Of a stretch of 51,505 nt of DNA, positions 21,566 to 46,896 are shown piece after piece. The DNA is taken from the NCBI GenBank assembly GCA_027021615.1, contig JALUTY010000033.1:1-51505 (forward strand). Direction: 5' to 3'. Source of the DNA: a bacterium (GTDB taxonomy: Bacteria > Desulfobacterota > Deferrisomatia > Deferrisomatales > Deferrisomataceae). The notes beneath the pieces were generated by a model. That model made no database searches, had not been told where the DNA came from, and saw nothing but the letters and a program-made list of their open reading frames with translations. The translations under genes were made by a program, and so were the position numbers. How positions within the stretch are numbered: position 1 is the first letter of the stretch; the number at the start of each line of letters is the position of its first letter.

Positions 21566-21585
21566 TCCCCCCTCCCGGAGGAGCG

Positions 21586-23004
21586 ATGAACGGCCCACCC
21601 CGTTCCCCTTCGGCCTCGGACCGCCAGCTCCGAACCGTGTTCGACATCAGCCACGACGGGCTGTGGATCATCGACGGCCGGGGGGTCATCATGAACCTGA
21701 ACCGGGCCGCCGAGCGGCTAAACGGGGTGGCTGCAACCGAGGTGATCGGTCGCAACATCGACGAGCTGGTAGCCGAGGGCGTGATCGACGCGTCGGTGAC
21801 CCGAGCCGTGCTGGCGTCGGGCGAAACCGTCAGCATGGTGCAGACCGCTCGGCGCACCGGTCGCCAGCTCATCGTCACGGGCACCCCTTCGGTGGGAGCG
21901 GACGGCACGGTGGAGTACGTGGTGGTCAACGACCGGGATGTGACCGAGACCAGCGAGCTCAGCCGTCAACTCGAAGAGCTGCGCAGGGCCAACGAGCGGC
22001 TCCGGGACGAGATGGCCACGTTGAGCCTGAAAAAGGCAGCCGAGCGGGGGCTGGTGGCTGAGAGCCCCCAGATGCGCGAGGTAGTCCGGGTGGCCGTGCG
22101 GCTGGCCCGTAAGAACGTCACCAACATTCTGCTGCTGGGCGAGTCCGGAACGGGCAAAGGGGTGCTGGCGCGGTTCATCCACAGCGAGAGCCCCAGGGCA
22201 CGGCGACCGTTTGTGCAGATCAACTGTGCAGCCCTTCCCGAAACCCTGCTCGAGGCCGAGCTGTTCGGCTACGAGAGAGGGGCGTTCACCGGCGCCTCCG
22301 ACGCGGGCAAGCCGGGCCTGCTGGAGGTGGCCGATGGGGGCACCCTGTTCCTGGACGAAGTGGGAGACATGCCGTTTTCCATCCAGGCGAAGATCCTCAA
22401 GTACCTGGACGACCACGAGATCCGGAGGCTGGGGAGCACCCGGGTGTGCCGATCGTGGTGTGCCGTGATCGCAGCCACCAATCAGGACCTGGAAAGCCTG
22501 GTCAAGGAGCGGCGGTTCCGGCAGGACCTGTTCTACCGCCTCAACACCTTCACGGTACACCTCCCCCCCTTGAGGGAGCGGAGAAGTGACGTGCTGCCGC
22601 TCGCGTTGCACTTCCTCGCGCGGTACGGCCAGCAGTTCGGGTGCAGGAAACGCTTTGGGCGCCGGGCCGTGGGGTGGCTCGAACGCTACCCGTTCCCCGG
22701 CAACGTACGTGAGCTGGAGGGCATCCTCAAGAACGCCGTGGTGATGTGCGAGGACGAGATCATCGACGAGTACCTCGTGCGGGACTGGGGATCGTGGGAC
22801 TCCCAGCCCCCACCGACCATGGGCCCGGGACGCACCCTGACCGAGCTGTTGGAAGCGACCGAGCGGCAAGCCCTCCTGCGCGCGGCGGCTGAGTGCCCCA
22901 ACACCCGGGAGATGGCCCGACGCCTCGGCGTGAGCCAGCCCACCGTAGTGCGCAAGCTCCGACGCCACGGCATTTCCCCGCCGGGCAGCAGTCCCCGCCA
23001 TTGA
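21586..23004 (+). CDS. PAS-AAA+-HTH sigma-54-dependent transcriptional activator
   Basis: 472 aa. Residues about 12-125 are a PAS sensor (TVFDISHDGLWIIDGRGVI...), followed by a coiled coil (SRQLEELRRANERLRDEMATL). The AAA+ domain has Walker A GESGTGKG (185-192), the sigma-54-contact loop GAFTGA (232-237), Walker B LFLDEVGDM, and PFPGNVRELEG. The end, NTREMARRLGVSQPTVVRKLRRHGIS, is a TyrR/Fis-like HTH. There is no receiver domain, so it likely senses a small ligand by PAS. CGGAGGAG precedes the ATG. Three matching 18-bp sites begin at its own stop codon and lead to a sigma-54 promoter, making the downstream catabolic operon the probable target. Confidence 0.93.
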   Translation: MNGPPRSPSASDRQLRTVFDISHDGLWIIDGRGVIMNLNRAAERLNGVAATEVIGRNIDELVAEGVIDASVTRAVLASGETVSMVQTARRTGRQLIVTGTPSVGADGTVEYVVVNDRDVTETSELSRQLEELRRANERLRDEMATLSLKKAAERGLVAESPQMREVVRVAVRLARKNVTNILLLGESGTGKGVLARFIHSESPRARRPFVQINCAALPETLLEAELFGYERGAFTGASDAGKPGLLEVADGGTLFLDEVGDMPFSIQAKILKYLDDHEIRRLGSTRVCRSWCAVIAATNQDLESLVKERRFRQDLFYRLNTFTVHLPPLRERRSDVLPLALHFLARYGQQFGCRKRFGRRAVGWLERYPFPGNVRELEGILKNAVVMCEDEIIDEYLVRDWGSWDSQPPPTMGPGRTLTELLEATERQALLRAAAECPNTREMARRLGVSQPTVVRKLRRHGISPPGSSPRH

Positions 23005-23184: not shown

Positions 23185-23200
23185 TGGCATCTCCATTGCA
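23185..23200 (+). promoter_or_regulatory. sigma-54 promoter of the aminotransferase-ABC-AOR operon
   Basis: TGGCATCTCCATTGCA matches the TGGCAC-N5-TTGCA consensus at all key positions, with GG and GC 12 bases apart. The predicted start is about 23211, 49 bases before the ATG at 23260. Confidence 0.85.
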
Positions 23201-23259: not shown

Positions 23260-24567
23260 ATGACCCGCGTCAACCAGCAGCTCATGGAGCGCCGTCAAAA
23301 GGCAGTCCCCCGAGGTCCCTTTCACGTAACCGACCGGTTCGCGGTCCACGCCAAGGGCGCCCGGGTCGTCGACGCCGACGGCACCGAGTACATCGACCTT
23401 ACCGGCGGGATCGGTGTGGTAGGCACCGCTCACTCTCACCCCTACGTCGTCGAAGCCGCAAGACGGCAGCTCGACCGCCTGATCCATACCTGTTTCCACG
23501 TGATGCCTTACGAGCCTTACGTCCGGCTGGCCGAGGAGCTCAACCGCCGCACGCCGGGAAGCCACGCCAAGAAGACGTTTTTTTGCAACAGCGGGGCCGA
23601 GGCCGTGGAGAACGCCATCAAGGTGGCCCGGGCCCACACCGGCAGAACTGCGATCGTGTGCTTCCAGAACGCCTTCCACGGCCGGACCCTCCTGGGCATG
23701 AGCCTCACCAGCAAGATCGTCCCCTACAAGAAGGGGTTCGGCCCCTTTGCTCCCGAGGTGTACCGAGTGCCCTATGCGTACTGCTACCGCTGCCCCTTCG
23801 GGGCGCCGGGCCCGGAGGCCTGCTCCCTGGAGTGCGCCGAGAACCTGCGACAGCTGTTCACCACCGGCGTGGACCCGGACTCGGTTGCGGCACTGGTGGT
23901 GGAACCGGTGCTCGGCGAGGGCGGCTTCGTGGTTCCCCCCGCCCGGTTCCTCTCCCGCATTTTCGAGATCTGCCAGGAGCACGGCATCGTTGTGGTGGCC
24001 GACGAGGTGCAGACCGGGTTCGGGCGAACCGGGGCGTTGTTCGCGTGCGAGGTGATGGGGGTCGTGCCCGATCTCATCACCACGGCGAAGGCCATGGCCT
24101 CGGGCTTTCCCCTGAGCGGGGTAACCGGGCGGGCCGAGGTGATGGATGCGCCCCAGGTGGGCGGGCTCGGGGGCACGTACGGGGGGAACCCCGTCTCCTG
24201 CGCCGCGGCCCTGGCCACCCTGAAAGTGATCGATCAGGAGGACCTGTGCGGCCGGGCGAAACTCCTGGGCGAGCGAATCCGGCAGCGGTTCCTGCGGCTC
24301 CGGGATGAACTGCCGGTTGTCGGCGAGGTGCGGGGTCTCGGTGCCATGATGGCCATGGAGCTGGTGACCGACCGGTCGACCAAGGAGCCTGCCACGGACC
24401 TCACGCAACGCCTGGGGCAGTATGCCCTGGGCCACGGCGTGGTCACAATCAAGGCCGGTACGGGGGGGAACGTGGTGCGTCTCCTTCCGCCGCTGTGCAT
24501 CGAGGAAGCGGATCTCGAGCGGGGGCTCGACGTTCTGGAGGCAGGACTCAGGGAACTGAGCGGCTGA
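23260..24567 (+). CDS. gabT: Class III aminotransferase, 4-aminobutyrate (omega-amino acid) type
   Basis: 435 aa. GAGAGGAGGGG precedes ATG 23260. Fold-type I PLP enzyme: FFCNSGAEAVENAIKVARAHTGR, NAFHGRTLLGMSLTSK, VVVADEVQTGFGRTG with the PLP Asp, and the Schiff-base Lys277 in TTAKAMASGFPLSG; GGTYGGNPVSCAAALATL closes the site. The YCYRCPF...CSLEC cysteine cluster is typical of bacterial GabT. It transfers an omega-amino group to 2-oxoglutarate, giving a semialdehyde and glutamate. GABA is the default, but 5-aminovalerate or beta-alanine are possible, given the CoA-transferase and aldehyde oxidoreductase downstream. Confidence 0.88.
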   Translation: MTRVNQQLMERRQKAVPRGPFHVTDRFAVHAKGARVVDADGTEYIDLTGGIGVVGTAHSHPYVVEAARRQLDRLIHTCFHVMPYEPYVRLAEELNRRTPGSHAKKTFFCNSGAEAVENAIKVARAHTGRTAIVCFQNAFHGRTLLGMSLTSKIVPYKKGFGPFAPEVYRVPYAYCYRCPFGAPGPEACSLECAENLRQLFTTGVDPDSVAALVVEPVLGEGGFVVPPARFLSRIFEICQEHGIVVVADEVQTGFGRTGALFACEVMGVVPDLITTAKAMASGFPLSGVTGRAEVMDAPQVGGLGGTYGGNPVSCAAALATLKVIDQEDLCGRAKLLGERIRQRFLRLRDELPVVGEVRGLGAMMAMELVTDRSTKEPATDLTQRLGQYALGHGVVTIKAGTGGNVVRLLPPLCIEEADLERGLDVLEAGLRELSG

Positions 24568-24612
24568 ACAGGCGGCACCCCGCCGCCGGCTCTCGAAGAG
24601 AGGAGGAAGACG

Positions 24613-25851
24613 ATGAGAAGAGTCGTGGCGTTCACACTCTGTGCCGTTCTCGGCACGAGCCCGGCGTGGGCCCAGGCCGACCGGAACTACTTCAAGGTCG
24701 GCGTGATCACCTCGCTTTCCGGAGACCTCGCCACCGGTGGAAACGTGACCAAGCGAGGGTACGACCTCTGGGCGAAGGCCGTGAACGAGGCGGGGGGCAT
24801 CGAGGTGAACGGCAAGCGTTACCCCGTCAAACTCTACTACGCCGACGCCCAGTCCGAGCCTTCCCAGGGGGCCAGCGGTGCCGAGCGGCTCGCCACCCAG
24901 CAGGAGGTGGACTTCGTGCTCGGTCCCTACTCCTCCGGGGTGACCCTGGCCGTGGCACCGGTTCTCGAGAAGTACAAGATCCCCATGATCACCGGCTCTG
25001 CCGAGTCGCCGCTGATCTGGCGTCAGAAGTTCGCCTACACCTTCGGCACGATCCCGCCCGTGAACTACACCGGCTCCCAGCCCGTGGGGGCCCTGGCCGG
25101 TCTGGCCCCGAAACCCCGCACCGCCATCGTGTTGGGATCGAACGACGCGTTCTCCAAGGCCACGGCTGAGGCGTTCAAGACAGCCGCCGAGGCCCACGGC
25201 ATCAAAGTCCTCAAGTTCAACATCGTGCCGAGCGGCCAGGACCTGATCCCCTTGCTCTCCGCGGCCAAGGTCCTGAGGCCCGACGTGATCGCGTTCGGCG
25301 GCCACGACGAGGAGCTCATCAACCTGGTCAAGGCCCTCCGGCAGATCAACTACACCCCCAAGGCCCTGCTGATGCACTACGGAGTCACCGAGCCCGCTTT
25401 CGTGGAGGCCCTCGGCAAAGACGCCGAGGAGGTGTTCGGCGCCTCGGTCTGGACCCCCACCCTGCCAACCCGGGGGGACCTGTTGTGGGCCGACGCCCGT
25501 GCCTATGCCGAGGCGGCCCAGAAAGAGTACGGGGTGCCGGCCGACTACACCCAGGCGGGATGCTCTGCCGCGGGAATCGCCTTCCAGGCCGCCGCGGCCC
25601 GCGCAGGGGTCACCCCGCCCCTCGACGAAGGCGAGAAGAGGGCGTTGCGCGACGCGCTCGAGGCGCTGGACATCGAGACCTTCTACGGCCGCATCGACTT
25701 CGCGGACCGAGGGGAGTTCTATCACGCCAATACCGGCCTGGAGGCCCTGACCGTGCAGATCCAAGGGAGACGCCCCGTCATCACGGCGCCCGCCGAGTTT
25801 GCCGAGGCCCCGGCCCGGTATCCCACGACGCCGTGGAACGACCGACGGTGA
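24613..25851 (+). CDS. livK: Periplasmic amino-acid-binding protein of a Liv-type ABC importer
   Basis: 412 aa with signal peptide 1-20 (TSPAWA cut). The type I periplasmic fold of LivK/amide-binding proteins is clear: KVGVITSLSGDLATGGNVTKRGYDLWAKAVNEAGGIEV, a DFVLGPYSSGVTLAVAPVLEKYKIPMITG block and TAIVLGSNDAFSKATAEAFKTAAEAHGI. It is first among the transporter genes and separated from the permease by a stable hairpin, as often seen when the binding protein is made in excess. The ligand is probably the amino compound handled by the aminotransferase, but this is inferred from context. Confidence 0.88.
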   Translation: MRRVVAFTLCAVLGTSPAWAQADRNYFKVGVITSLSGDLATGGNVTKRGYDLWAKAVNEAGGIEVNGKRYPVKLYYADAQSEPSQGASGAERLATQQEVDFVLGPYSSGVTLAVAPVLEKYKIPMITGSAESPLIWRQKFAYTFGTIPPVNYTGSQPVGALAGLAPKPRTAIVLGSNDAFSKATAEAFKTAAEAHGIKVLKFNIVPSGQDLIPLLSAAKVLRPDVIAFGGHDEELINLVKALRQINYTPKALLMHYGVTEPAFVEALGKDAEEVFGASVWTPTLPTRGDLLWADARAYAEAAQKEYGVPADYTQAGCSAAGIAFQAAAARAGVTPPLDEGEKRALRDALEALDIETFYGRIDFADRGEFYHANTGLEALTVQIQGRRPVITAPAEFAEAPARYPTTPWNDRR

Positions 25852-25877
25852 GTTGTCCGTAGCGGCAGAAGAGGATG

Positions 25878-25903
25878 GGGGCCGCGAGAGGCAACGCGGC
25901 CCC
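25878..25903 (+). promoter_or_regulatory. Intercistronic hairpin between livK and livH
   Basis: GGGGCCGCG (25878-25886) and CGCGGCCCC (25895-25903) form a perfect 9-bp stem with an 8-base loop and no T-run. Such hairpins stabilise the upstream mRNA or reduce read-through. A direct repeat TGTCCGTAGCG flanks it (25855 and 25934), and a second hairpin GGGCCGAG/CTCGGGCCC is at 25973-25994. Confidence 0.55.
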
Positions 25904-26017
25904 TCGCCTCCGGATGGCGCCCGGGCGAAGCGCTGTCCGTAGCGCCAAACTTTCGGTCAAAAAAGGTCTCCTGGGCCGAGCCTTTCTCGGGCCCGGCTCC
26001 CCTTCACGGAGGTTCCC

Positions 26018-26908
26018 GTGCTCTGGCAGCTCCTTCCCCAGGCCGTCCTGGACGGTCTTCTGATCGGCGGTGTCTACATCACAGTGGCCCTGGGGTTCTC
26101 GCTCGCGTTCGGGGTGAAGCACATCATCGACTTCGCGGTGGGCGAGTGGATCATGCTGGGCGCGTTCCTGGGCTACTACCTGCAGGGGTGGACCGGCCTC
26201 GACCCGTTGCTCCTCCTGCCCGTTGTGTTCGCCGTGTTCACGGCCGTGGGATACGCCATCCAGCCGGTGATCCACCGGGCCGTGAGCGGCCGTCGGGGCA
26301 ACCCGGTGCTCATGGGACTCGTGTTCACCTTCGGACTCATGCTGGCCATCCGGGGCGCAGGCCTGACCGTGTTCGGGTTCTTCAGCCACTCGATCCCGTC
26401 GGTGATGAGCGCGCGTTCCTGGTTTCTGGAGGCCGGGGGCCTGTTCGTGACCGTACCGGCCATCCGGCTCGTAGGGTTCGTGTACGCCATCGGGATCACG
26501 GCCGTTCTCCACTGGGTGCTGCGCCACACCGACTTCGGGCTGGCGGTGCGGGCCCTGGCTCAGAATCGGGATGCGGCCGGACTCATGGGTATCAACGCAC
26601 GCCGAATCAGCTCGTGGGTGTACGGGATCCACGTGGGCGTGAGCGCCATGACCGGCGTGGTGATCGGCTCGATCTTCTCGATCAGCGCCCAGATGGGAGG
26701 CGACTACACGATCCTGGCGTTTTTCGTGGTCGTCCTGGCCGGCATGGGTTACCTGGCGGGTGTACCGTGGGCCGCGTTCCTGTTGGGGCTCGTACAGTCG
26801 CTCTTCCTGGTCTACGGCAACCCCAGCTACACCCTGCTCGCGGTGTTCGCCATCCTGTACCTGATTCTCCTCGTCTCGCCCAGGGGGCTTTTCGCGAAGG
26901 GAGTGTGA
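26018..26908 (+). CDS. livH: LivH-type ABC permease
   Basis: 296 aa, eight or so hydrophobic helices. GTG 26018 has GGAGG 5 bases upstream. Family blocks: DGLLIGGVYITVALGFSLAFGVKHIIDFAVGEWIMLGA, the cytoplasmic loop RALAQNRDAAGLMGINARRISSWVYGI, and VVLAGMGYLAGVPWAAFLLGL. It forms the membrane channel with LivM and is energised by LivG/LivF. Confidence 0.92.
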   Translation: MLWQLLPQAVLDGLLIGGVYITVALGFSLAFGVKHIIDFAVGEWIMLGAFLGYYLQGWTGLDPLLLLPVVFAVFTAVGYAIQPVIHRAVSGRRGNPVLMGLVFTFGLMLAIRGAGLTVFGFFSHSIPSVMSARSWFLEAGGLFVTVPAIRLVGFVYAIGITAVLHWVLRHTDFGLAVRALAQNRDAAGLMGINARRISSWVYGIHVGVSAMTGVVIGSIFSISAQMGGDYTILAFFVVVLAGMGYLAGVPWAAFLLGLVQSLFLVYGNPSYTLLAVFAILYLILLVSPRGLFAKGV

Positions 26909-26911
26909 CGG

Positions 26912-27895
26912 ATGCGACGATCTAGGGCCCTGTGGGCCGGGATCACGGCCGTGGTGTTCGCCGTGATCCCCCTTCTCACCCGGGACACGTTTGCCCTTCG
27001 GGTGGTCACCGAAGCCATGATGTGGATCGGGCTGGCCGTGGCATGGGACGTGCTCGGCGGTTACACCGGGTATCTCAACTTCGGGCACGGGGCCTTTTTC
27101 GGCCTCGGCGCCTACACCACGGCCGTGCTGATGATGCGCGGTCACTGGCCGTTCGCCCTGGCGCTGGCCGCCGGAGGAGTACTGGCCGGAGCTGCCGCGG
27201 TCGTGGCAGGGCTCCCTACCCTGAGGTTGAAAGGGGCTTACTTCGCCATCGCCACCTGGGCCTTGGCCAGGGCCGTGCAACAGCTCGCACTGGTGTTGGA
27301 GTTCACCGGCGGCCCCGACGGGATGCGGCTTCCCCCTTTCCTGAACCCCCAGTTCTTCTACTATTTGATGTGGGCCCTGGTGAGCGTGATTTTCGTCGTC
27401 CTGTGGATCCTCCTGGAACACTCGGCCTTCGGGCTCAAGCTCCAGGCGATCCGGGAGGACGAAGAGGGTGCCATGGCCCTGGGGCTGAAGCCCACCACCA
27501 TCAAGATCCAGGCCTTCGTGCTCTCCACGGTGCCGGCCGGAATCCTCGGCGGGGTGTACGCCTACTGGATCACGTTCATCGACCCGGCATCGGTCCTGGG
27601 CGACCTGGTCACCGACCAGTCGGTGGTGATGGCCGTGTTCGGAGGGCTGGGCACCTTGGTGGGGCCGGCCGTGGGCGCGGTGCTGATCTACGCCTTCAAG
27701 ACCTTTTTCTGGGCCTACCTGTCCGAGTACCAGGTGCTGTACCTCATCATCCTCGGGACCGTGATCGCCCTGAGCGTGGTGTTCCTGCCCGACGGCCTGA
27801 TCGGTCTGCTGACCGGCCGCGGCCGGGCCGAAGCCCCCAGGTCGCCGGAACCGGCGGACGAAAATCCTCCAGAACTCCGGGAGGCAGCCCCATGA
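26912..27895 (+). CDS. livM: LivM-type ABC permease
   Basis: 327 aa. Family blocks are GGYTGYLNFGHGAFFGLGAYTTAVLMMR, GLPTLRLKGAYFAIATWALARAVQQ and the ABC-contact loop LKLQAIREDEEGAMALGLKPTTIKIQAFVLSTVPAGILGGVYAY. It starts 3 bases after livH and its stop overlaps livG (ATGA). The last 25 residues are a polar tail. Confidence 0.92.
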   Translation: MRRSRALWAGITAVVFAVIPLLTRDTFALRVVTEAMMWIGLAVAWDVLGGYTGYLNFGHGAFFGLGAYTTAVLMMRGHWPFALALAAGGVLAGAAAVVAGLPTLRLKGAYFAIATWALARAVQQLALVLEFTGGPDGMRLPPFLNPQFFYYLMWALVSVIFVVLWILLEHSAFGLKLQAIREDEEGAMALGLKPTTIKIQAFVLSTVPAGILGGVYAYWITFIDPASVLGDLVTDQSVVMAVFGGLGTLVGPAVGAVLIYAFKTFFWAYLSEYQVLYLIILGTVIALSVVFLPDGLIGLLTGRGRAEAPRSPEPADENPPELREAAP

Positions 27896-28617
27896 GCCGT
27901 GAACTTCTGGCCGTGGACCAGGTGTCCATGATTTTCGGCGGCCTGCGTGCCCTCGACGACGTCTCGTTTTCGGTGGGATCCGGCGAGATCGTGGGGCTCA
28001 TCGGCCCCAACGGCGCGGGCAAGACCACCTTGTTCAACGTGGTGAGCGGGTACTGCCGCCCCAGCCGGGGCCGGGTGCGGTTCGACGGCAAGGACGTCAC
28101 CGGCCAGCGGCCGTTTCATTTGGCCCGTCTCGGCATCGCCCGCACCTTCCAGATCGTCAAGCCCTTCGCGGGCCTGACGGTGCTGGAGAACGTGACCGTG
28201 GCATGCCTGCTCCACCACCCCCGTCGCCGGCATGCACGGCAAAAGGCCTGGGAGATCCTCGAGTTCACCGGATTGGCCGAGCGGGCCGGCCGACCGGCCT
28301 CGGGCCTGACCCTGGCCGGGAGGAAACGGCTCGAGATCGCCAAGGCCCTGAGCCTCAACCCCCGACTCCTGCTGCTCGACGAGGTGGTGGCCGGCCTGAA
28401 CCCCACCGAGGCCGACCGCACGATCGAACTGATTCTGAACATCCACCGCAGCGGGGTGAGCATCCTGATCGTGGAGCACATCATGCGGGTGATCATGAAC
28501 ATCAGTGACCGGGTGGCGGTGCTCAACTACGGGGCGAAGATCGCCGAGGGGCCGCCTCAACAGGTGGCCCAGGACCCCGGAGTGATCGAGGCCTACCTCG
28601 GGGAGGCGGCGGCATGA
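27892..28617 (+). CDS. livG: LivG-type ABC ATPase
   Basis: 241 aa. Walker A GPNGAGKTT, the LivG-specific ARTFQIVKPFAGLTVLENV segment, signature variant TLAGRKRLEIAKAL, where LSGGQ is replaced by TLAGR, and Walker B LLLLDEVVAGLNPTE, then VEHIMRVIMNISDRVAVLNYG. The altered signature (no LSGGQ) occurs in some LivG proteins, and LivF carries the canonical LSGGEQ. Confidence 0.92.
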   Translation: MSRELLAVDQVSMIFGGLRALDDVSFSVGSGEIVGLIGPNGAGKTTLFNVVSGYCRPSRGRVRFDGKDVTGQRPFHLARLGIARTFQIVKPFAGLTVLENVTVACLLHHPRRRHARQKAWEILEFTGLAERAGRPASGLTLAGRKRLEIAKALSLNPRLLLLDEVVAGLNPTEADRTIELILNIHRSGVSILIVEHIMRVIMNISDRVAVLNYGAKIAEGPPQQVAQDPGVIEAYLGEAAA

Positions 28618-29324
28618 GCGAGCTGGTCCTCGAGGCGGTGTCCGCCCACTACGGCGACGTGCAGGCATTGTGGGACGTCTCTCTCTCGGTGGCCCCGGGT
28701 CAACTCGTTACCCTGCTGGGCGCCAACGGCGCGGGCAAGACCACCACCCTCCGGACCATCTGCGGCCAGATCAAAGCATCGTCTGGAACGGTGCGATACG
28801 CAGGTCGGGAGATCACCCGCTGCGAGGCCCACGAGGTGGCGGACCTGGGGATCACGTTGGTGCCCGAGGGCCGGCAGTTGTTCCCCCAGATGACCGTGGA
28901 GGAGAACCTGATCGTGGGGTCGTACCTACCCAGGACCCGGGCAAACCGCAAACGCAACCTCTCCCGGGTGTACGAACTGTTCCCCCGCCTGGCGGAACGG
29001 CGCTCCCAACCGGCCGAAACCCTGTCGGGCGGCGAACAGCAGATGCTGGCGATCGGCCGGGGCTTGATGCAGGAACCCCAACTCATCATGTTCGACGAAC
29101 CCAGCCTGGGGCTGGCCCCGATTCTCGTCCGGGAGATCTTTGGTATTATTCGTGAGCTGCACCGCCAGGGGCTTACGATCTTCCTGGTGGAGCAAAACGT
29201 CCACCACGCGATCCGGGTGGCCGATTACTGCTACGTGATCGAAAACGGCCGGGTGGTGCGCGAAGACTCGGCGGCGGACCTGGAGGCCGACCCGGCCATC
29301 CGACAGGCGTACCTGGGCCTGTGA
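28614..29324 (+). CDS. livF: LivF-type ABC ATPase
   Basis: 236 aa. Walker A GANGAGKTTT, TLVPEGRQLFPQMTVEENL (LivF hallmark), signature LSGGEQQMLAIGRGLM, Walker B LIMFDEPSLGLAP and the switch His in VEQNVHHAI. It overlaps livG by four bases and leads into the oxidoreductase gene. Confidence 0.93.
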   Translation: MSELVLEAVSAHYGDVQALWDVSLSVAPGQLVTLLGANGAGKTTTLRTICGQIKASSGTVRYAGREITRCEAHEVADLGITLVPEGRQLFPQMTVEENLIVGSYLPRTRANRKRNLSRVYELFPRLAERRSQPAETLSGGEQQMLAIGRGLMQEPQLIMFDEPSLGLAPILVREIFGIIRELHRQGLTIFLVEQNVHHAIRVADYCYVIENGRVVREDSAADLEADPAIRQAYLGL

Positions 29325-29338
29325 AACGGAGGAGCGTC

Positions 29339-31105
29339 ATGAACGGCTTCTATGGACGCGTGCTCGTGGCCGATGCCACCCACCGGACCTGCCGGATCGA
29401 GGAGCTGCCCGAGGAGGTGGCCCGGGGCATGTGGGGGGGGAAGGGGCTGGGGGTGTGGCTGTTGAAACGGTACGGTCTGGTGGGCGTGGATCCCCTGGCC
29501 CCGGAGAACCCCCTGATCCTCTTGGCCGGCCCGGTGGCCGGCACGCCGATCCCGGGCTCGTGCCGCCACGCCCTGGTGACCAAGAGCCCCCAGACCGGGT
29601 TCTTCTCCGAGTCGTACTCCGGCGGGAAGCTGGCCGAGAAGATCGCCAAGGCAGGGGTGGACGCCGTGGTCCTCCTGGGCCGGGCGGATGACCCGGTGGT
29701 GCTGGAGGTGGGGGACGGCCAGGGTCGGTTCCACGACGCCCCGGACCTGTGGGGCCAGGACACCTTTGCCGCCGAGGCCGCCCTGGTGGAACGGTTCGGC
29801 GGGAGCGGCCGCGCCGGCGCGTGCGTGATCGGCCCGGCCGGCGAGAACGGGGTGGTCCTTTCCATCGTGGCCAACGACAAGTGGCGGTGCGCGGGGCGCA
29901 CCGGCGCCGGCGCGGTGATGGGCTCGAAGCGGGTGAAGGGCGTGGTGTTCCACGGGTCGGCCTCCCGGCCCCTGGCCGACCCCGACGGGGTGCGGGCGTT
30001 CGCCCGGCGCACCGTGGCCGAGCGGCGCGGCAGCCCGGCGGCCCAGACCTACCGGAACTACGGCACCCCCAACATGGTGGCCCTGCTCAACACCGTGGGC
30101 GCGTTCCCCAACCGCTACTGGCACCGGGGCCGGTCGGGGCGGGTGGACGAGATCTCGGCCGAGGCGCTCCTGACCCGGTGCGAGGTCAAGCCCAAGGCCT
30201 GCGCCCGGTGCTTCATGGCCTGCGGCAAGCTGACCCGGGTGACCTCGGGGCCGTACGAGGGCTTGGTGATCGAGGGCCCGGAGTACGAGACCATCTACGC
30301 GTTCGGAGGCCTGTGCGAGATTGCCCCGATCGAGGCCGTGGCCCACCTGAACGATGTGTGCGACCGGCTCGGCCTGGACACGATCAGCGCGGGCAACCTG
30401 GTGGCCTTTGCCATGGAGGCGTCGGAACGCGGCGCCGTGGACGAGACGGTGGCGTTCGGGGACCTGGAGGCGGCCGAGCGGCTCCTGGGCCAGATCGCCC
30501 GGCGCGAGGGCCTGGGCGAGGTGCTCGCCCGGGGCATCGCGGCCGCGGCCCAGCAGTGGGGGCTCGAGGACGTGGCGATCCACGTGAAGGGGCTGGAGCC
30601 GGCCGGGTACGACCCCCGGGTCCTGCCGGGCATGGGGCTGGCCTACGCCACCTCGGACCGGGGAGCCTGCCACCTGCGGACCACCTTCTACAAGGCCGAG
30701 CTCTCGGGCCAGATCCCGCCTGAGCAGGTGGAGGGCAAGGCCGCTCTCCTCATGGACTACGAGGACCGGCTCGCCCTCATGGACGCCTTGATCCTGTGCC
30801 GGTTCTACCGGGACTTCTACGGCTGGGACGAGCTGGTCGAGATCGCCCGGGGCACCCTGGGCGTGGAAGGGGGCCCGGACGAGCTGCGGGCCACGGCCCG
30901 CCGGATCGCGGACGCGGTCCGGCGGTTCAACATGAATGAGGGCCTCACCGCGGACGACGACCGGCTGCCCGCCCGGTTTTTCGACGAGCCCCTGCCCGAG
31001 ACCGGGGCCGTGCTGCGGCGGGACGACTTCGAGCGGATGCGCCGGGAGTACTACGCCCTGCGGGGCTGGGACCCGGCCGGCCGGCCCGGGCCGGGGAACG
31101 ATTGA
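29339..31105 (+). CDS. aor: Aldehyde:ferredoxin oxidoreductase (tungstopterin AOR family)
   Basis: 588 aa. ATG 29339 follows CGGAGGA by 6 bases; an in-frame GTG at 29321 overlaps livF and is less likely. The N-terminal AOR domain (GFYGRVLVADATHRTC, GKGLGVWLLKRYG, GSCRHALVTKSPQTGFFSESYSGG) binds the bis-pterin cofactor. The 4Fe-4S ligands are Cys288, Cys291, Cys295 (CARCFMAC) and Cys487 (ILCRFY). Such enzymes oxidise aldehydes to acids and reduce ferredoxin. Between an aminotransferase operon and a CoA-transferase, a semialdehyde is a likely substrate, taking the place of an NAD(P) semialdehyde dehydrogenase. Confidence 0.9.
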   Translation: MNGFYGRVLVADATHRTCRIEELPEEVARGMWGGKGLGVWLLKRYGLVGVDPLAPENPLILLAGPVAGTPIPGSCRHALVTKSPQTGFFSESYSGGKLAEKIAKAGVDAVVLLGRADDPVVLEVGDGQGRFHDAPDLWGQDTFAAEAALVERFGGSGRAGACVIGPAGENGVVLSIVANDKWRCAGRTGAGAVMGSKRVKGVVFHGSASRPLADPDGVRAFARRTVAERRGSPAAQTYRNYGTPNMVALLNTVGAFPNRYWHRGRSGRVDEISAEALLTRCEVKPKACARCFMACGKLTRVTSGPYEGLVIEGPEYETIYAFGGLCEIAPIEAVAHLNDVCDRLGLDTISAGNLVAFAMEASERGAVDETVAFGDLEAAERLLGQIARREGLGEVLARGIAAAAQQWGLEDVAIHVKGLEPAGYDPRVLPGMGLAYATSDRGACHLRTTFYKAELSGQIPPEQVEGKAALLMDYEDRLALMDALILCRFYRDFYGWDELVEIARGTLGVEGGPDELRATARRIADAVRRFNMNEGLTADDDRLPARFFDEPLPETGAVLRRDDFERMRREYYALRGWDPAGRPGPGND

Positions 31106-32085
31106 GAGTGGATGGGACCGGCTCCGTGATCGACAAGGTGATCTCCCTGGAGGAGGCTGCGGCCCTCGTGCCGTCGGGGGCCACGGTGTCCATCGGCGGG
31201 TTCACGAGTCAGAGGCACCCCACGGCGCTGCTGCGGGCCCTCGTCCGGCACGGCGTCAGGGACCTGGTGGTGTACTGCCACTCGGCCGGCAGCGACGTGG
31301 ACCTCTTGATCGGTGCCGGGTGCGTACGCCGGGTGGAGGCCGCCTACCTGGCCGACGGCGTGTTCGCCCCCATCGCGCCCAACTGGCGTCGGTTCGTGGA
31401 GGCCGGCCGGCTGGAGTTCGAGGACTACTCCAACGCCGCCATGATGGCCCGGTTCTCCGCCGGCGCCATGGGTCTGCCGTTCTTCCCGGTGCGCTCGATG
31501 CTCGGCACCGACCTGTTGGAGAAGGAGGGGCTGTCGGCCGAGGTCCGCCGGACCGATCCCACGGCCGCTCCGAAGAAGGCGGCGGTGGTCAACTGCCCCT
31601 TTACCGGCGAGTCGGTGGTGCTCGTGCCCGCGATCCGCACCGACCTGTGCCTGCTCCACGTCCAGCGGGCCAGCCCCCAGGGCCTGGTGCGGATCGAGGG
31701 GCAGGAGTTCCTGGACGTGCAGCAGGCTCTCGCGGCCGACCGGGTCATTGTGACCTGCGAGGAGCTGGTGGACGACGAGGAGCTCCGGCGGGAGCCCGAA
31801 CGCAACCGCATTCCCCCATTTGCCGTGCACGCCGTGGTGCCCGTGCCGTTCGGGGCCCACCCCCACAGCGTGCACAACTGCTATGACTACGACCCCGGAC
31901 ACCTGGCCCTGTACGCCGAGGCGGCCCGCTCCGACGACGCCTTTCGGGCCTACCTGGAGCGGTTTGTGTTCGGGCCGTCCGACCACGCCGCCTATCTGGA
32001 GGCCGTGGGCGGACCCGAGCACCTGGAGACCCTGCGGGCCCGTTCCGGCCTGGGGTACAACCCCGAGCTGCGGAGGAGACCGTGA
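31102..32085 (+). CDS. CoA-transferase alpha subunit (glutaconate-CoA-transferase type)
   Basis: 327 aa if read from TTG 31102, which overlaps the AOR stop; GTG 31108 is an alternative. Family I CoA-transferase features: the early GATVSIGGFTSQRHPTALLRALVRHG and the late FGAHPHSVHNCYDYDPGHLALYAEAARSD, as in glutaconate CoA-transferase subunit A. It binds the CoA ester with the beta subunit encoded next. It probably activates the acid made by AOR, with succinate, glutarate or a related dicarboxylate as candidates. Confidence 0.85.
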   Translation: MRVDGTGSVIDKVISLEEAAALVPSGATVSIGGFTSQRHPTALLRALVRHGVRDLVVYCHSAGSDVDLLIGAGCVRRVEAAYLADGVFAPIAPNWRRFVEAGRLEFEDYSNAAMMARFSAGAMGLPFFPVRSMLGTDLLEKEGLSAEVRRTDPTAAPKKAAVVNCPFTGESVVLVPAIRTDLCLLHVQRASPQGLVRIEGQEFLDVQQALAADRVIVTCEELVDDEELRREPERNRIPPFAVHAVVPVPFGAHPHSVHNCYDYDPGHLALYAEAARSDDAFRAYLERFVFGPSDHAAYLEAVGGPEHLETLRARSGLGYNPELRRRP

Positions 32086-32852
32086 GCGCCCCGTTCTCCA
32101 CCTTCGAGCTGATGACCGTGGCCGCAGCCCGGGAGATCCGGGACGGCGAGGTGGTGTTCGCCGGCACGGGCCTGCCCATGCTGGCCGCCATGCTGGCCCA
32201 ACGCACCCATGCGCCGGGATGCGTCCTGGTGTTCGAGGCCGGAGGCGTGGACCCCCGCATGCTCCACCTGCCCATGAGCGTAGGCGACTCGCGCACCCTG
32301 ACCGGCGCGGCCATGGCCGCCGGTCTGATGGAGGCGTTCACCTACCTTCTGCAAGGAGGCCGGATCGACGTGGGGTTCCTGGGCGGGGCCCAGGTGGACC
32401 GGTATGGGAACATCAACTCCACCGCCGTGGGGAACTACCTCCAGCCCTCGGTGCGGTTCTCGGGTAGCGGGGGCGCGGCCGACGTGGCGGCCCTGGCCGG
32501 CCGCACGGTGATCATCGCCCGCCACGAGCGCCGCCGGTTCCCGGAACGGGTGGACTACCGCACCAGCCCCGGCTGGATCGAGGGGGGCGACTCCCGCGCC
32601 CGGGCCGGGATCCGGGGCGGCGGCCCGGCCGCGGTGGTCACCACCCTGGGCGTCATCCGGTTCCGGCCCGGCACCAAGGAGCCCTACCTGGCCTCCGCCC
32701 ACCCCGGCATCTCCCCGGAACACGTGCAGGCCGAGACCGGGTTTCCCCTGGACCTCTCCGAGGCCGGGGAGACCCCGCCTCCCACCCGGGAGGAGCTTGA
32801 GATCCTGCGTACCACGGTCGATCCTGAGGGGGTGTTTCTGAAGCGGCATTAA
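32082..32852 (+). CDS. CoA-transferase beta subunit
   Basis: 256 aa from GTG 32082, overlapping the alpha gene by four bases. The likely catalytic glutamate is Glu52 in LVFEAGGVDPR. LPMSVGDSRTLTGAA and VGFLGGAQVDRYGNINSTAVG are standard for GctB-type subunits. It is the last gene of the sigma-54 operon before the separate glutamate dehydrogenase. Confidence 0.86.
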   Translation: MSAPFSTFELMTVAAAREIRDGEVVFAGTGLPMLAAMLAQRTHAPGCVLVFEAGGVDPRMLHLPMSVGDSRTLTGAAMAAGLMEAFTYLLQGGRIDVGFLGGAQVDRYGNINSTAVGNYLQPSVRFSGSGGAADVAALAGRTVIIARHERRRFPERVDYRTSPGWIEGGDSRARAGIRGGGPAAVVTTLGVIRFRPGTKEPYLASAHPGISPEHVQAETGFPLDLSEAGETPPPTREELEILRTTVDPEGVFLKRH

Positions 32853-32887
32853 CCCGCCGTTTCGTTCTGGACACGACCGCCCGCCTC

Positions 32888-32922
32888 TGGTACACATCGG
32901 GCAGTGTTTGATATCACCAAAC
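32888..32922 (+). promoter_or_regulatory. Possible sigma-54 promoter and inverted repeat before glutamate dehydrogenase
   Basis: TGGTACACATCGGGCA (32888-32903) has GG and GC 12 bases apart, but the -12 box reads GGGCA instead of TTGCA, so it is a weak match. GTTTG-N7-CAAAC (32906-32922) directly follows and could be an operator. The start codon is at 32938. Confidence 0.4.
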
Positions 32923-32937
32923 GAAATGGAGGTATCC

Positions 32938-35931
32938 ATGTATCCCGACGCCGCCAAACCGGTCTACCGTCGCCTTCGCCAGACCCTGAAGGGGTACCAG
33001 GAGCAGGCCCGCCGAAACCTGGAGTGGCTACGCGACCACATGCACCCCTACTTCTTCATCACCATGAAGGAGGAGACCGAGGCGCTGGTCCAGCTGGCGT
33101 CGGGGCTCCACGCCCTCACCCACAGCCGTCGGATGATCCTGACCGATCAGGAGAAGAAGCTGATCCTGGCGTGCCTGAACCTGCCCGGCACGGTGTACGC
33201 CTCGTTCCGGGAGCTGGCTGAGAGGGAGATCTCGTACGCCGAGATCACCCACTCCTACGAGCCCATCCCCGAGCTGTGCTGCGAGCTGGAGATTCAGCGG
33301 TTCGAGTTCTCCCCCAAGGACCATGCCGAGATCGCCCAGGCCGCCCCCCCCGAGGTGCCGGTCGCCGTGCGCCGGGGCGTGGCCCGGGCCATGCGCCGGA
33401 TGTACCCAGAGTTTGATTTCGCGGAACTCGATCGGGTGCTGGGGCTCCTGTGGCTCAACAACGAGCACTACGTGCGGATCTCGCCGCCGGAGCGGGTGGC
33501 GCGGGTCCTGTGGCTGTACCAGACGGCCCGACGCCACGACGGTCTGTACCTGGACGTGGAGAACACCGAGGATGTGGTGCACCACCGGGAGTCACGGGTG
33601 CTGTTCGCCGTGGGCAACCCCCCCCAACCCGGGTTCCTGGCCCAGACCATGGAGGTGTTCAACCGCCTGGATCTGGGCGTGCGCCGGGCCTACTGCCTGA
33701 CCATCAGCACCGGGGTCCACCCTTACTTCCTGGGCACCTTCTACGTGATCACCCGCAGCGGGGAGCTGCTGCAGAAGGACTCGCCCCTGTTCCGGACCCT
33801 CCAGAGCGAGCTGTACAACACCCAGATCCTGTCGCCGGCGGGTCCCCTGTACACCGAACACGTGGCCCAGGGCACCATGACCGGTGAGGACGCCACCCTT
33901 ACCAACGCGTTCATCGCCTTCTGCCACACCAACCTGGCCCACAACCAGCCCGACCGGTTCGACCTGGGCGAGGTGAAGCGGGCGTTCTACGCGAACCCGA
34001 ACGTGGCCCTGGCCCTGATCCGGCTGTTCCGGGCCCGATTCGATCCGGACAGAACCGACCGCGAACAGGCCTACGCAGCCGCGAGGGAGGAGGTGGAGAC
34101 CCTGGTAGCCAACTACAACACCGGCCACCGCCACCTGGACGAGGTACGCCGCACGGTCTTCCGCACCGCGCTGCTCCTGATCGAGCACACCCTGAAGACC
34201 AACTTCTTCGTGCCCGAGAAGCACGCCCTGGCCTTCCGGCTCGACCCGGCGTATCTGAGGCAGCTGGGCGACGAGTTCACGTCCGACCTGCCCAAGGGCG
34301 AGCCGTTCCGGATCACGTTCTTTTTCGGCCGCCACGGCGCGGGCTACCACGTGGGGTTCTCCGACATCGCCCGGGGCGGATGGCGCACCATCGTCTGCCG
34401 CAGCAGCGACGACTTCGTCACGAACGCCAACACCCTGCTGCGTGAGGTGTACGTGCTGGCCCACACCCAGCACCTCAAGAACAAGGACATCTACGAGGGC
34501 GGGTCCAAGATGACCGTGGTGATGGACGCCTCGGACCTGGCCGATCCGACCCTGGTGACCCAGCGGCTCTACAAGCTCCAGTACGGGTTCCTCAACGCGT
34601 TCCTCGATCTGTTCGTGACCCGGGACGGCCGGGCCGCCCACCCCCGGGTGGTGGACTACTACGGCGAGGACGAGCCGATCGAGCTGGGGCCCGACGAGAA
34701 CATGCACGACGGCATGATCGAGCTGATCGCCCGCCAAGCCGTAAAGCGCGGCTACGTGCTGGGCAAGGGGATCATCTCGTCCAAACGGGTGGGCATCAAC
34801 CACAAGGAGTACGGGGTGACCTCCCTGGGTGTGATCCGGTTCGCCGAGATCACCATGGAGGAGCTCGGGATCGACATGGCCCGGGACCCCTTTACCGTGA
34901 AGATCACCGGCGGCACCAACGGCGACGTGGCCGGCAACGCCATGCGGCTGCTGCTGGAGCGGTGCCCCAACGTGGCGATCCGGCTGATCGTGGCCGGCTC
35001 CGGGGTGCTGTACGACCCTGAGGGCATCGACCGGGAGGAGCTGGGCCGGCTGATCCTGAAGGACAACATCGACGCGTTCCGGCCCGAGCGGCTCCACCCC
35101 GGGGGGTACCTGCTGCTGCGGCGCCAGCGCAAGCGCGAGGGGCTCCGGGAGCTGTACCGCAGGTGGGTGCGGACGGCCGACGGGGTGGAGGAGCAGTGGG
35201 TGACCACCGACGAGTTTCACCGGGAGTTCGACGGTGCCATCTTCCACGTGCCCGCCGACCTGTTCATCCCGGCGGGCGGCCGGCCCGAGACGATCGACGA
35301 CCAGACCTGGGAGAGCCTGCTGGGGCCGGACGGCGCCCCCACCTGCCGGGCCATCGTGGAGGGCGCCAACTCTTACCTCACCCCTAGGGCGCGGGAAGAG
35401 CTTCAGCGCCGGGGGGTGGTGGTGATCCGGGACGCCTCGGCGAACAAGTGCGGCGTGATCAGCTCGTCGTACGAGATCCTGGCGAACCTCCTCATGAGCG
35501 ACGAGGAGTTCCTCACCCTCAAAGCCACCTACGTGGGCCAGGTGCTGGAGATCCTGGAGCGCCGGGCCGCGGACGAGGCCCGCCTGCTCCTGCGGCGGTG
35601 GAAGGAGGCCGGCCGGGCTCGGCTATTCACCGAGATCTCGGCCGAGGTCAGCAGGGAGATCAACGCCCGGTACGCCGAGCTGTTCGACCTGTTCCGCAGG
35701 CGCCCGGAGCTCCTGACCCAGCCGGTGTACCGACGGGTGGTGCTGGCCCACATGCCCCCGCTCGTGGCCGAGACCCCCAAGTTCCGGCGGAGACTCGGTA
35801 GCCTCCCGGCCAAGATCCTCGCGGCCATCACGGCGGTGGAGATCGCCACCCGCACGGTGTACCACCGGGACTGGCAGGAGGATCTGGAGGACACGGTACG
35901 GCGGTACGTGAAGCGGGAGTTCGGGGCATAG
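32938..35931 (+). CDS. gdh: NAD-specific glutamate dehydrogenase, large (about 115 kDa) class
   Basis: 997 aa; TGGAGG sits 5 bases before ATG. This size and the long N-terminal regulatory half place it with the roughly 1000-residue NAD-GDHs, not the 420-aa hexameric ones. The catalytic half shows RGGWRTIVCRSSDDF, EGGSKMTVVMD with the active Lys region, KRGYVLGKGIISSKRVGINHKEYGVTSLGV, the nucleotide-binding KITGGTNGDVAGNAMRLL and CRAIVEGANSYLTP. It deaminates glutamate to 2-oxoglutarate, which would regenerate the amino acceptor for the aminotransferase. Confidence 0.92.
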   Translation: MYPDAAKPVYRRLRQTLKGYQEQARRNLEWLRDHMHPYFFITMKEETEALVQLASGLHALTHSRRMILTDQEKKLILACLNLPGTVYASFRELAEREISYAEITHSYEPIPELCCELEIQRFEFSPKDHAEIAQAAPPEVPVAVRRGVARAMRRMYPEFDFAELDRVLGLLWLNNEHYVRISPPERVARVLWLYQTARRHDGLYLDVENTEDVVHHRESRVLFAVGNPPQPGFLAQTMEVFNRLDLGVRRAYCLTISTGVHPYFLGTFYVITRSGELLQKDSPLFRTLQSELYNTQILSPAGPLYTEHVAQGTMTGEDATLTNAFIAFCHTNLAHNQPDRFDLGEVKRAFYANPNVALALIRLFRARFDPDRTDREQAYAAAREEVETLVANYNTGHRHLDEVRRTVFRTALLLIEHTLKTNFFVPEKHALAFRLDPAYLRQLGDEFTSDLPKGEPFRITFFFGRHGAGYHVGFSDIARGGWRTIVCRSSDDFVTNANTLLREVYVLAHTQHLKNKDIYEGGSKMTVVMDASDLADPTLVTQRLYKLQYGFLNAFLDLFVTRDGRAAHPRVVDYYGEDEPIELGPDENMHDGMIELIARQAVKRGYVLGKGIISSKRVGINHKEYGVTSLGVIRFAEITMEELGIDMARDPFTVKITGGTNGDVAGNAMRLLLERCPNVAIRLIVAGSGVLYDPEGIDREELGRLILKDNIDAFRPERLHPGGYLLLRRQRKREGLRELYRRWVRTADGVEEQWVTTDEFHREFDGAIFHVPADLFIPAGGRPETIDDQTWESLLGPDGAPTCRAIVEGANSYLTPRAREELQRRGVVVIRDASANKCGVISSSYEILANLLMSDEEFLTLKATYVGQVLEILERRAADEARLLLRRWKEAGRARLFTEISAEVSREINARYAELFDLFRRRPELLTQPVYRRVVLAHMPPLVAETPKFRRRLGSLPAKILAAITAVEIATRTVYHRDWQEDLEDTVRRYVKREFGA

Positions 35932-35973: not shown

Positions 35974-36201
35974 CCGCTCCGTGGACAAAAAAATCCCCGA
36001 CCCCAGGAGGAAAGGGCCGGGGCAAACGGGGGAACGTTCCGATTCGAATCTAGAACCATTCCATGACCATGTCAATCCCCTTTTCGGAAAAAACGCGAAA
36101 CATCCATACTTTCTTGCAAAGGCAGTGACGCCTTTTGCGGTTCTGGCGAGGGGGGCCACACCGGGCTCCCCCTGGCCGGGCCAGTGCCTTTCGGAGGGTC
36201 G
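35974..36201. other. Spacer before the Gate-domain pair
   Basis: AT-richer than its surroundings (around 36050-36140), with no gene, repeat-family member or clear promoter that I can identify. Confidence 0.3.
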
Positions 36202-36648
36202 ATGGAGGCAACCCCCGACGCGCCTCGGTCCCTCGGGGAATCGGTCCGCGAGGGGCTGGCCAAGAGCCTGGTTTCCCTGGGCATCCTGGCCCGGATTCTC
36301 GTCCCCTCGTACCTGATCGTCGATCTGCTGCGCCAGACGCCGGTGATCCCCTGGATCGCCGACGCCCTCGCACCCGCCATGGGGGTGTTCGGCCTGCCTG
36401 GGGAGGCCGCGGTTGCGCTGGTGGCCGGGCTCACGGTGAACCTGTATGCGGCCCTCGGGGCGATGGCGCCCCTGGGGCTCGCGCCCCGGCAGGTGACGAT
36501 CCTGGGGCTGGTCCTGGGCATCGCCCACGCCCTCGTGGTAGAGACGGCGGTCATCCGGCAGGTCTGCCGCCGCTGGCTCGCCCTGGCTGCGGCCCGGCTG
36601 GTCCTCGGCCTCTCGGCCGGCGCCCTCCTCCACCTGGTTCTCCCATGA
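36202..36648 (+). CDS. Gate-domain (nucleoside recognition/SpmA-SpmB-like) membrane protein, first half
   Basis: 148 aa; CGGAGGG precedes ATG 36202. Four hydrophobic segments; LVPSYLIVDLLRQTPVIPWIADALAPAMGVFGLPGEAAVALVAGLTVNLYAALGAM is the typical Gate/nucleoside-recognition region. Overlaps the next gene by four bases (ATGA). Pairs of this kind are thought to form a transporter; the substrate is unknown. Confidence 0.75.
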   Translation: MEATPDAPRSLGESVREGLAKSLVSLGILARILVPSYLIVDLLRQTPVIPWIADALAPAMGVFGLPGEAAVALVAGLTVNLYAALGAMAPLGLAPRQVTILGLVLGIAHALVVETAVIRQVCRRWLALAAARLVLGLSAGALLHLVLP

Positions 36649-37510: not shown

Positions 37511-39484
37511 ATGGGTCTGCTGGACAGCCTCGCCCAGAGAATCGACCGGCTGAACGACGGGGTGGGGAGGGCGGTTTCGTGGCTCACGACGGGGATGGTG
37601 CTCCTCACGGCCTACGATACCATCATGCGCTACGGGTTCCAGCACGGGAACATCGCGCTGCAGGAACTGGAGTGGCACCTTTTCGGGGTGGTGTTCCTGA
37701 TCGGGGCCGCCTACACGCTCAAAGAAGACGCCCATGTCCGGGTGGACATCATCTACGCGCGCTTGGACGAACGGAAACGGGCCTGGATCAACTTGATCGG
37801 CTCGCTGATCGCCCTGATCCCCTTCACGATTTTGGTGATCTGGTGCACGAAGATGTTCGTCATGAACTCCTGGGCGGTTCGGGAGACCTCGCCCGATCCC
37901 GGCGGCCTTCCGGCCCGGTACGCGCTGAAGGCGATGATCCCCCTGGGGTTCGTGCTCCTGCTGCTGCAGGGGGTGTCCGAGGCAGCCAAGAGCTACCGGT
38001 ACCTCCGGGAGCATCCCGCCCCCGACAAGGCCGCGGGCCGCAAATGGGTGTGGTTCTGGATCGCGGCCGCGGTGGCCTTCCTGGTGTTCGGAGCGGTCAT
38101 CAAGGTGAGCCTGGAGGGGTGGGTGACCCTTCCCGAGGGCATGGAGACGTGGCTCGAGCCGGTCCACGAGATCCTGCCGGCCATCATGTTCGGCGTCCTG
38201 TTCGCCGTGCTCCTGTTCGGGTTCCCGGTGGCGTTCACCCTGGGCGGCACCGCGCTCGTGTTCGGGTACATGGCCTTCGGGTTCGACTTCTTCAACCTCT
38301 TGCCCCTACGGATCTGGGGCATCGTGACCAACTTCACCCTTCTGGCCGTGCCCCTGTTCGTGTACATGGGGGTCATGCTCGAGCGCTCGGGCCTGGCCGA
38401 GGAACTGCTGGAGACCATGGCCCTTCTGTTCGGCCGGATGCGGGGCGGGCTGGCCATCTCGGTGGTGGTGGTAGGCGCGCTCCTGGCGGCCTCCACCGGG
38501 ATCGTGGGCGCCACCGTGGTCACCATGGGGCTTCTGTCGCTCCCCACCATGCTCCGCCGGGGGTACCAGAAGGAGCTGGCCACCGGCGTGATCGCGGCAT
38601 CCGGCACCCTCGGCCAGATCATTCCCCCGTCGATCGTGCTCGTGCTCCTGGGCGACATCATGAACGTGCCGATCGGCGACCTGTTCATCGGATCGGTGGT
38701 CCCCGGGTTCATCCTGGTCGGCCTGTACATCATCTGGATCCTCATCGTGGGGTGGATGCGCCCCGAGTGGGCCCCGCCGATCCCGGCCGAGGAGCGGGCC
38801 CAGACCCAGGGATGGGACCTGGTTCGGCGGGTGGTCGTGGCCCTGATCCCGCCGGCGTTCCTGATGTTGGCCGTTCTGGGTTCGATCTTCGCCGGCATCG
38901 CCTCCCCCACCGAGGCGGCCGCCCTCGGCGCGGTGGGCGCCTCGATCCTCACGGCGGCCAAGGGCCGGCTGAACCCGAAGATCGTGCGGGAGGTGATGCA
39001 GGCCACCACCAAGCTCACCTGCATGGTGTTCATCATCCTGGTGGGGGCCGGCTCCTTCGGGCTGGTGTTCCGGGGGATGGGGGGCGACGACGTGGTGCGC
39101 ACGTTCATCGAGTGGCTGCCGTTCGGCAAGTGGGGCATCCTGGTCGTGACCATGTCGATCATCTTCGTCGCCGGGTTCTTCCTGGACTTCATCGAGATCA
39201 CCTTCATCCACGTGCCCGTGCTCGCCCCGATCATGATCAGCATGGGCGTGGACCCGCTGTGGCTGGCGGTGCTGATCGCGGTGAACCTCCAGACCTCGTT
39301 CCTCACCCCCCCGTTCGGGTTCGCGCTGTTCTACTTGAAGGGGGTGGCGCCCAAGGAAGTCACCACGGGGCACATCTACAAAGGCATCATCCCGTTCGTG
39401 GTGATCCAGGTGATCGGCCTGATCGTCGTGGCATTCTGGCCCGAGGCCGTGACCTGGCTGCCCTCGCTGATGCTCAAGCAGTAG
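37511..39484 (+). CDS. dctQM: TRAP transporter, fused small and large membrane subunits (DctQM)
   Basis: 657 aa; AAAGGAGG is 4-5 bases before ATG. Residues about 20-190 are the DctQ part (YDTIMRYGFQHGNIALQELEWHLFG, EDAHVRVDIIYARL). Residues about 225-655 are DctM: LLFGFPVAFTLGGTALVFGYMAFG, LFVYMGVMLERSGLAEELLETM, IIPPSIVLVLLGDIMNVPIGDLFIGSVVPG, ASPTEAAALGAVGA and LTPPFGFALFYLKGVAP. Fusion of Q and M is known (SiaQM type). No DctP binding protein is adjacent, so the substrate cannot be guessed from context. Confidence 0.93.
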   Translation: MGLLDSLAQRIDRLNDGVGRAVSWLTTGMVLLTAYDTIMRYGFQHGNIALQELEWHLFGVVFLIGAAYTLKEDAHVRVDIIYARLDERKRAWINLIGSLIALIPFTILVIWCTKMFVMNSWAVRETSPDPGGLPARYALKAMIPLGFVLLLLQGVSEAAKSYRYLREHPAPDKAAGRKWVWFWIAAAVAFLVFGAVIKVSLEGWVTLPEGMETWLEPVHEILPAIMFGVLFAVLLFGFPVAFTLGGTALVFGYMAFGFDFFNLLPLRIWGIVTNFTLLAVPLFVYMGVMLERSGLAEELLETMALLFGRMRGGLAISVVVVGALLAASTGIVGATVVTMGLLSLPTMLRRGYQKELATGVIAASGTLGQIIPPSIVLVLLGDIMNVPIGDLFIGSVVPGFILVGLYIIWILIVGWMRPEWAPPIPAEERAQTQGWDLVRRVVVALIPPAFLMLAVLGSIFAGIASPTEAAALGAVGASILTAAKGRLNPKIVREVMQATTKLTCMVFIILVGAGSFGLVFRGMGGDDVVRTFIEWLPFGKWGILVVTMSIIFVAGFFLDFIEITFIHVPVLAPIMISMGVDPLWLAVLIAVNLQTSFLTPPFGFALFYLKGVAPKEVTTGHIYKGIIPFVVIQVIGLIVVAFWPEAVTWLPSLMLKQ

Positions 39485-46204: not shown

Positions 46205-46211
46205 GTGCTTC

Positions 46212-46312: not shown

Positions 46313-46373
46313 GGGCCTTCGGCCCGCTGGGTGACCAGACGGCTGGGCGGCTCACGAACCGCGCCAAGCTCGG

Positions 46374-46880: not shown

Positions 46881-46882
46881 AA

Positions 46883-46896
46883 CGTCACAGATGACG
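46883..46896 (+). promoter_or_regulatory. Palindromic candidate activator site
   Basis: CGTCA-CAGA-TGACG, itself flanked by CAAA and TTTG, is centred about 98 bases upstream of the predicted sigma-54 start, a usual enhancer position. Only one copy is seen. Confidence 0.45.

Follow-up and report, generated by a model that had tools for sequence, protein, structure and literature searches.

The genes at 23260–35931, all on the plus strand of the DNA analysed here, are read with moderate confidence as a sigma-54-controlled catabolic operon that imports and oxidizes an omega-amino acid, most likely 5-aminovalerate and possibly GABA too. The window, meaning the whole 51,505-nucleotide stretch that was analysed, corresponds to contig 33 of a Desulfobacterota genome of 4.25 Mb, and the nearest named relative of its aldehyde oxidoreductase (AOR) comes from a Deferrisomatales MAG. 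Statements about the genome outside the window come from family searches of that genome.

The proposed pathway would begin with a Liv-type importer bringing in the omega-amino acid, most likely 5-aminovalerate. A GabT-type aminotransferase (AT) would convert 5-aminovalerate and 2-oxoglutarate to glutarate semialdehyde, which AOR would oxidize to glutarate, passing two low-potential electrons to ferredoxin. A GctAB-type CoA-transferase (subunits CtA and CtB) would turn glutarate into glutaryl-CoA, while glutamate dehydrogenase (GDH) would regenerate 2-oxoglutarate and release ammonium. Glutaryl-CoA would go on to crotonyl-CoA through a non-decarboxylating glutaryl-CoA dehydrogenase and a Na+-pumping glutaconyl-CoA decarboxylase, encoded elsewhere in the genome. 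The genes would be co-induced, and the reactions would run in the oxidative direction. The gene content bears out the initial annotation, which had placed AOR at the aldehyde-oxidizing position of an omega-amino acid degradation operon.

Gene set, promoter and conservation

The AT, the importer, AOR, the glutaconate-type CoA-transferase and NAD-type GDH had been described as following each other, and all were found, in that order (Table 1). Their identities and catalytic residues, like the conserved linkage and the presence of a glutaryl-CoA module in the genome, are read from sequence. From LivG through CtB, neighbouring genes overlap by a few bases, an operon-like arrangement.

Table 1. Features of the window that belong to, precede or follow the proposed operon
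Feature	Coordinates	Strand	Evidence
Sigma-54-dependent activator (PAS, AAA+, HTH_50)	20980..23004	+	Pfam Sigma54_activat E 3e-63, PAS, HTH
Sigma-54 (-24/-12) promoter-like site TGGCATCTCCATTGCA	23185..23200	+	10/12 consensus positions
GabT-type class III aminotransferase (AT)	23260..24567	+	TIGR00700 564 bits
Liv/HAAT-type periplasmic substrate-binding protein (SBP)	24613..25851	+	PF13458 E 1e-52
Liv-type permease 1	26018..26908	+	PF02653
Liv-type permease 2 (LivM)	26912..27895	+	PF02653 E 1e-38
LivG-type ATPase	~27892..28617	+	PF00005 and PF12399
LivF-type ATPase	28614..29324	+	PRK11614 LivF E 7e-87
AOR-family aldehyde oxidoreductase (tungsten type)	29321..31105	+	AFOR_N, AFOR_C
CoA-transferase alpha (CtA), GctA type	31102..32085	+	best PDB 1poi_A
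CoA-transferase beta (CtB), GctB type, Glu52	32082..32852	+	best PDB 1poi_B
Large NAD-type glutamate dehydrogenase (GDH)	32908..35931	+	PF05088 and PF00208
Fused DctQM TRAP transporter	37511..39484	+	PF06808 and PF04290

Two readings of open frames were rejected. An apparent fused permease–ATPase at 26932–28617 is an over-long reading of the LivG frame, LivM and LivG being separate genes, and the ORF at 36135–37085, a candidate TRAP binding protein, matches nothing and is overlapped by an ORF for a Gate (nucleoside recognition) domain protein (36184–36648), which lies between the GDH and TRAP transporter genes. The DctQM transporter possibly carries a dicarboxylate such as glutarate, and its link to the operon is uncertain; a DctM 41% identical to the window copy adjoins CtAB in locus L117. 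Elsewhere in the window are a row of PrkA-like kinase, YhbH-like and SpoVR-like genes (947–8580; the second PrkA-like gene is a weak match) and two neighbouring genes with a PEP-utilizer mobile domain and PPDK_N (46195–49983), resembling a split enzyme of the PEP-synthase or phenylphosphate-synthase type.

The sigma-54-dependent activator is likely the regulator of the operon. Such a gene is also found upstream of AT in genomes G001, G002, G004 and G007 and in several Desulfobacteraceae loci. The predicted promoter TGGCATCTCCATTGCA lies ~60 bp 5′ of the AT start codon (ATG 23260, besides which the frame has TTG 23257); it is the sole site scoring at least 10 in the intergenic region, and there are three such sites in the whole window. 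Sites matching at 10–12 of the 12 positions occur at the equivalent place in G002 and in L036, L073, L124, L127, L117 and others, several Desulfobacteraceae loci among them. The pair that marks a sigma-54-dependent operon, a -24/-12 promoter and a dedicated activator, is found here, the promoter as a prediction from its consensus match.

The operon is 93–99% identical in the congener G002, and its gene set recurs, reordered, in other Deferrisomatales. The order in G007 is activator, AT, SBP, GDH, permeases, ATPases, AOR, CtA, CtB; in G004 the genes fall on two contigs (activator-AT-SBP and LivF-GDH-AOR-CtA-CtB). The place of GDH shifts yet remains inside the operon in G002, G004 and G007. Retention of the same set despite changed order in G004 and G007 argues for one shared function rather than chance. 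Among 80 loci picked by AOR similarity alone, 20 have this AT type within 8 kb of AOR, adjacent (32–129 bp) in seven; since there is about one such AT gene per genome, well under one hit would be expected by chance. A quick tree of AORs places the AT-linked ones on many different branches. Homologues of the SBP, 69–74% identical, are found in other AT-AOR loci. A small conserved protein (about 105–130 aa) is encoded between AT and SBP in L124 (3026–3343), L127, L088, L121, L101 and L073; none was seen in the window, and the L124 copy has no Pfam match.

The aldehyde and acid-activation steps

The window AOR has both family domains (PF02730, AFOR_N, E 8e-64; PF01314, AFOR_C, E 6e-116), and its best PDB match is the Pyrococcus AOR 1aor (360 bits), with which it shares the Fe4S4 cysteines (CX2CX3C and the distal Cys). 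By published second-shell criteria (PMC12096430) it keeps all four residues, Thr243, Glu313, Tyr427 and His448 in P. furiosus numbering. It thus has the domains and residues of an AOR sensu stricto, with a predicted tungsten cofactor. In Pyrococcus and Clostridium autoethanogenum, characterized AORs that lack AorA/AorC partners donate their electrons to ferredoxin (PMC12096430). The operon contains no AorA/AorC partner genes, and we infer ferredoxin as the acceptor of the window AOR too. Genes for Rnf/Nqr-type membrane subunits are present in the genome. One AOR match, in G003, had an in-frame stop considered as a possible selenocysteine codon, which proved to be the normal C-terminal stop.

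It had been claimed that AOR is the only aldehyde-oxidizing enzyme here and replaces a semialdehyde dehydrogenase, with a check of the genome for a conventional one suggested. Within the operon both parts stand: it contains no aldehyde dehydrogenase (ALDH). For the source genome they lack support in strict form, since that check found a GabD-like succinate semialdehyde dehydrogenase (SSADH; 587 bits, below the 646 cutoff) on contig 39, and there are nine other AOR-family hits. The GabD-like gene lies in its own cluster (L013, G000:C39:1-12295) with an HpaB-family gene, an AMP-binding acyl-CoA ligase, an NADH-oxidase-like flavoprotein and a Liv-type importer of its own; the HpaB-family protein is possibly of the 4-hydroxybutyryl-CoA dehydratase type. 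Replacement fits G007 better, where the operon is complete and AOR may indeed stand in for SSADH: no match to the SSADH query reached 1e-80 there, and the one ALDH with an E-value of 1e-60 or lower is a P5C dehydrogenase, scoring above its cutoff. Replacement is not universal, given that a Sad-like ALDH (below cutoff) occurs in G004.

CtA and CtB are nearest to the two subunits of glutaconate CoA-transferase. CtA scores 236 bits against 1poi_A (next PDB entry 102) and CtB 205 bits against 1poi_B (next 79), and the catalytic glutamate of the beta subunit, Glu52 in CtB, is aligned and invariant in 11 homologues, which together place CtAB in the GctAB type as far as sequence can assign it. In two other loci CoA-ligases stand beside AT and AOR (with ETF in L043, alone in L111), so CoA-ester formation from the acid product is probable.

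A glutaryl-CoA module is present in the genome. Its non-decarboxylating glutaryl-CoA dehydrogenase (best match 3mpi, 389 bits; next 300) is directly preceded by genes for OAD_beta, the beta subunit of a Na+-pump decarboxylase, and a biotin carrier, and glutaconyl-CoA decarboxylase A (GcdA; 3gf3 738 bits, 1pix 724 bits, next unrelated family 139) is encoded on a different contig. The module is unlinked to the operon, lying on separate contigs here and ~2 Mb away in G002, and it could serve aromatic degradation. Of 50 genomes tested, 42 have glutaryl-CoA dehydrogenase, with or without an AT-AOR pair; co-occurrence with AT-AOR pairs was set aside as uninformative, because nearly all tested genomes have the dehydrogenase.

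One contig of G065 (L212) carries CtB, CtA, an IclR-like regulator, a TAXI-TRAP transporter, glutaryl-CoA dehydrogenase and GcdA (the IclR-like and TAXI names were assigned by reading the sequences). In G046, CtAB come after glutaryl-CoA dehydrogenase, and G004 has a second CtAB copy together with a TAXI-TRAP transporter. In the CtB tree, the AT-AOR-linked CtB of L073 and L082 are sister to the G065 copy (support 97/85). The window's own CtAB clade was not seen beside glutaryl-CoA dehydrogenase, so the link runs via relatives. This clustering favours glutarate, and hence 5-aminovalerate, without proving it, and it supports the route from 5-aminovalerate to glutaryl-CoA for which the initial annotation had invoked the glutaconate-like CoA-transferase.

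Which substrate

GabT-type enzymes accept both GABA and 5-aminovalerate, and nothing in the sequence determines the chain length. The best PDB matches of AT are all GabT, and its score against the GABA transaminase model TIGR00700 (564.2 bits) passes the curated cutoff of 506.7, as it should if the operon serves GABA, with AOR oxidizing succinate semialdehyde to succinate and the CoA-transferase perhaps making succinyl-CoA. Desulfofustis (L094/G062) also fits that account: it has AT, AOR and a small GDH, and a search for glutaryl-CoA dehydrogenase gave no strong match, which makes a C4 substrate likely in this organism, and some AT-AOR pairs probably serve GABA. However, oxidation to succinate requires no CoA-transferase, both Ct subunits score much higher against glutaconate CoA-transferase than against succinyl-CoA-type transferases, and CtAB relatives keep company with glutaryl-CoA genes. 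For the operon of the window we consider a GABA pathway rather unlikely.

The Liv type of the importer, and the many related AOR loci in which a Liv importer occurs but this AT does not, would suit an operon for branched-chain or aromatic alpha-amino acids, in which AOR oxidizes the aldehydes derived from their 2-oxo acids. Such an operon is improbable: its sole aminotransferase is of the class III GabT type, it has no decarboxylase or 2-oxoacid:ferredoxin oxidoreductase, and the SBP is only remotely similar to the E. coli leucine and Leu/Ile/Val binding proteins. (An AlphaFold model of the SBP, with mean pLDDT 61.6, was set aside for ligand inference.) AORs have broad substrate ranges, some reduce acids, and detoxification is commonly proposed for them (PMC12096430); the ten AOR-family hits in the genome, the window AOR included, would agree with general aldehyde detoxification or acid reduction rather than a dedicated catabolic step. 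Against this stand the tight, repeated pairing with the same AT type over many AOR branches and the presence of the operon in G007, which lacks a conventional SSADH, and we judge it the least probable reading. Two of the other AOR-family loci (L164 and L169, at G000:C78 and C113) lie beside ferredoxin-like and HdrA-like genes and recall class II benzoyl-CoA reductase; if of that type, they would partly explain why the genome needs the glutaryl-CoA module.

Relation to known routes

The aerobic DavT–DavD route of Pseudomonas leads from 5-aminovalerate through glutarate semialdehyde and glutarate to glutaryl-CoA. Oxidation of 5-aminovalerate as proposed here would share omega-transamination, semialdehyde oxidation to glutarate and then formation of glutaryl-CoA. 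It would differ in that AOR takes the place of the NAD(P) semialdehyde dehydrogenase of that cluster, and in activation by a CoA-transferase followed by the non-decarboxylating dehydrogenase and Na+-pumping decarboxylase. As in the GABA shunt (GabT–GabD), a GabT-type AT would turn an omega-amino acid into a semialdehyde, whereas the operon has AOR and a CoA-transferase and no GabD. The lone catalytic subunit, second-shell residues and FeS cysteines are those of the Pyrococcus and Clostridium autoethanogenum type of AOR sensu stricto, here set within what would be a dedicated omega-amino acid operon. Acidaminococcus provides the best matches for CtAB (GctA/GctB) and for the decarboxylase of the genome (glutaconyl-CoA decarboxylase A); in contrast to its glutamate fermentation pathway, the CoA-transferase of the window belongs to an AT-AOR operon. 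Anaerobic use of 5-aminovalerate is shared with Clostridium viride, whose fermentation is reductive, through 5-hydroxyvalerate to valerate (PMC8473912), whereas the route proposed here is oxidative, to glutarate.

An open-access literature search found nothing joining 5-aminovalerate with aldehyde ferredoxin oxidoreductase; an earlier description in subscription journals is possible. Tentatively, these loci may represent a widespread Desulfobacterota pathway in which omega-amino acids are oxidized via a dedicated tungsten AOR, electrons are saved at the ferredoxin level and 5-aminovalerate is coupled to the Na+-pumping glutaconyl-CoA decarboxylase. Proline Stickland fermentation yields 5-aminovalerate, and the pathway, if real, would be an oxidative sink for what that fermentation leaves behind. 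The anaerobic fate of 5-aminovalerate found in the open-access literature is the reductive fermentation by Clostridium viride (PMC8473912). If Desulfobacterota have such an oxidative, ferredoxin-conserving route, both 5-aminovalerate and GABA would have a direct sink in anoxic environments, and AORs, for which a physiological role is often hard to name, would gain a defined substrate in catabolism.
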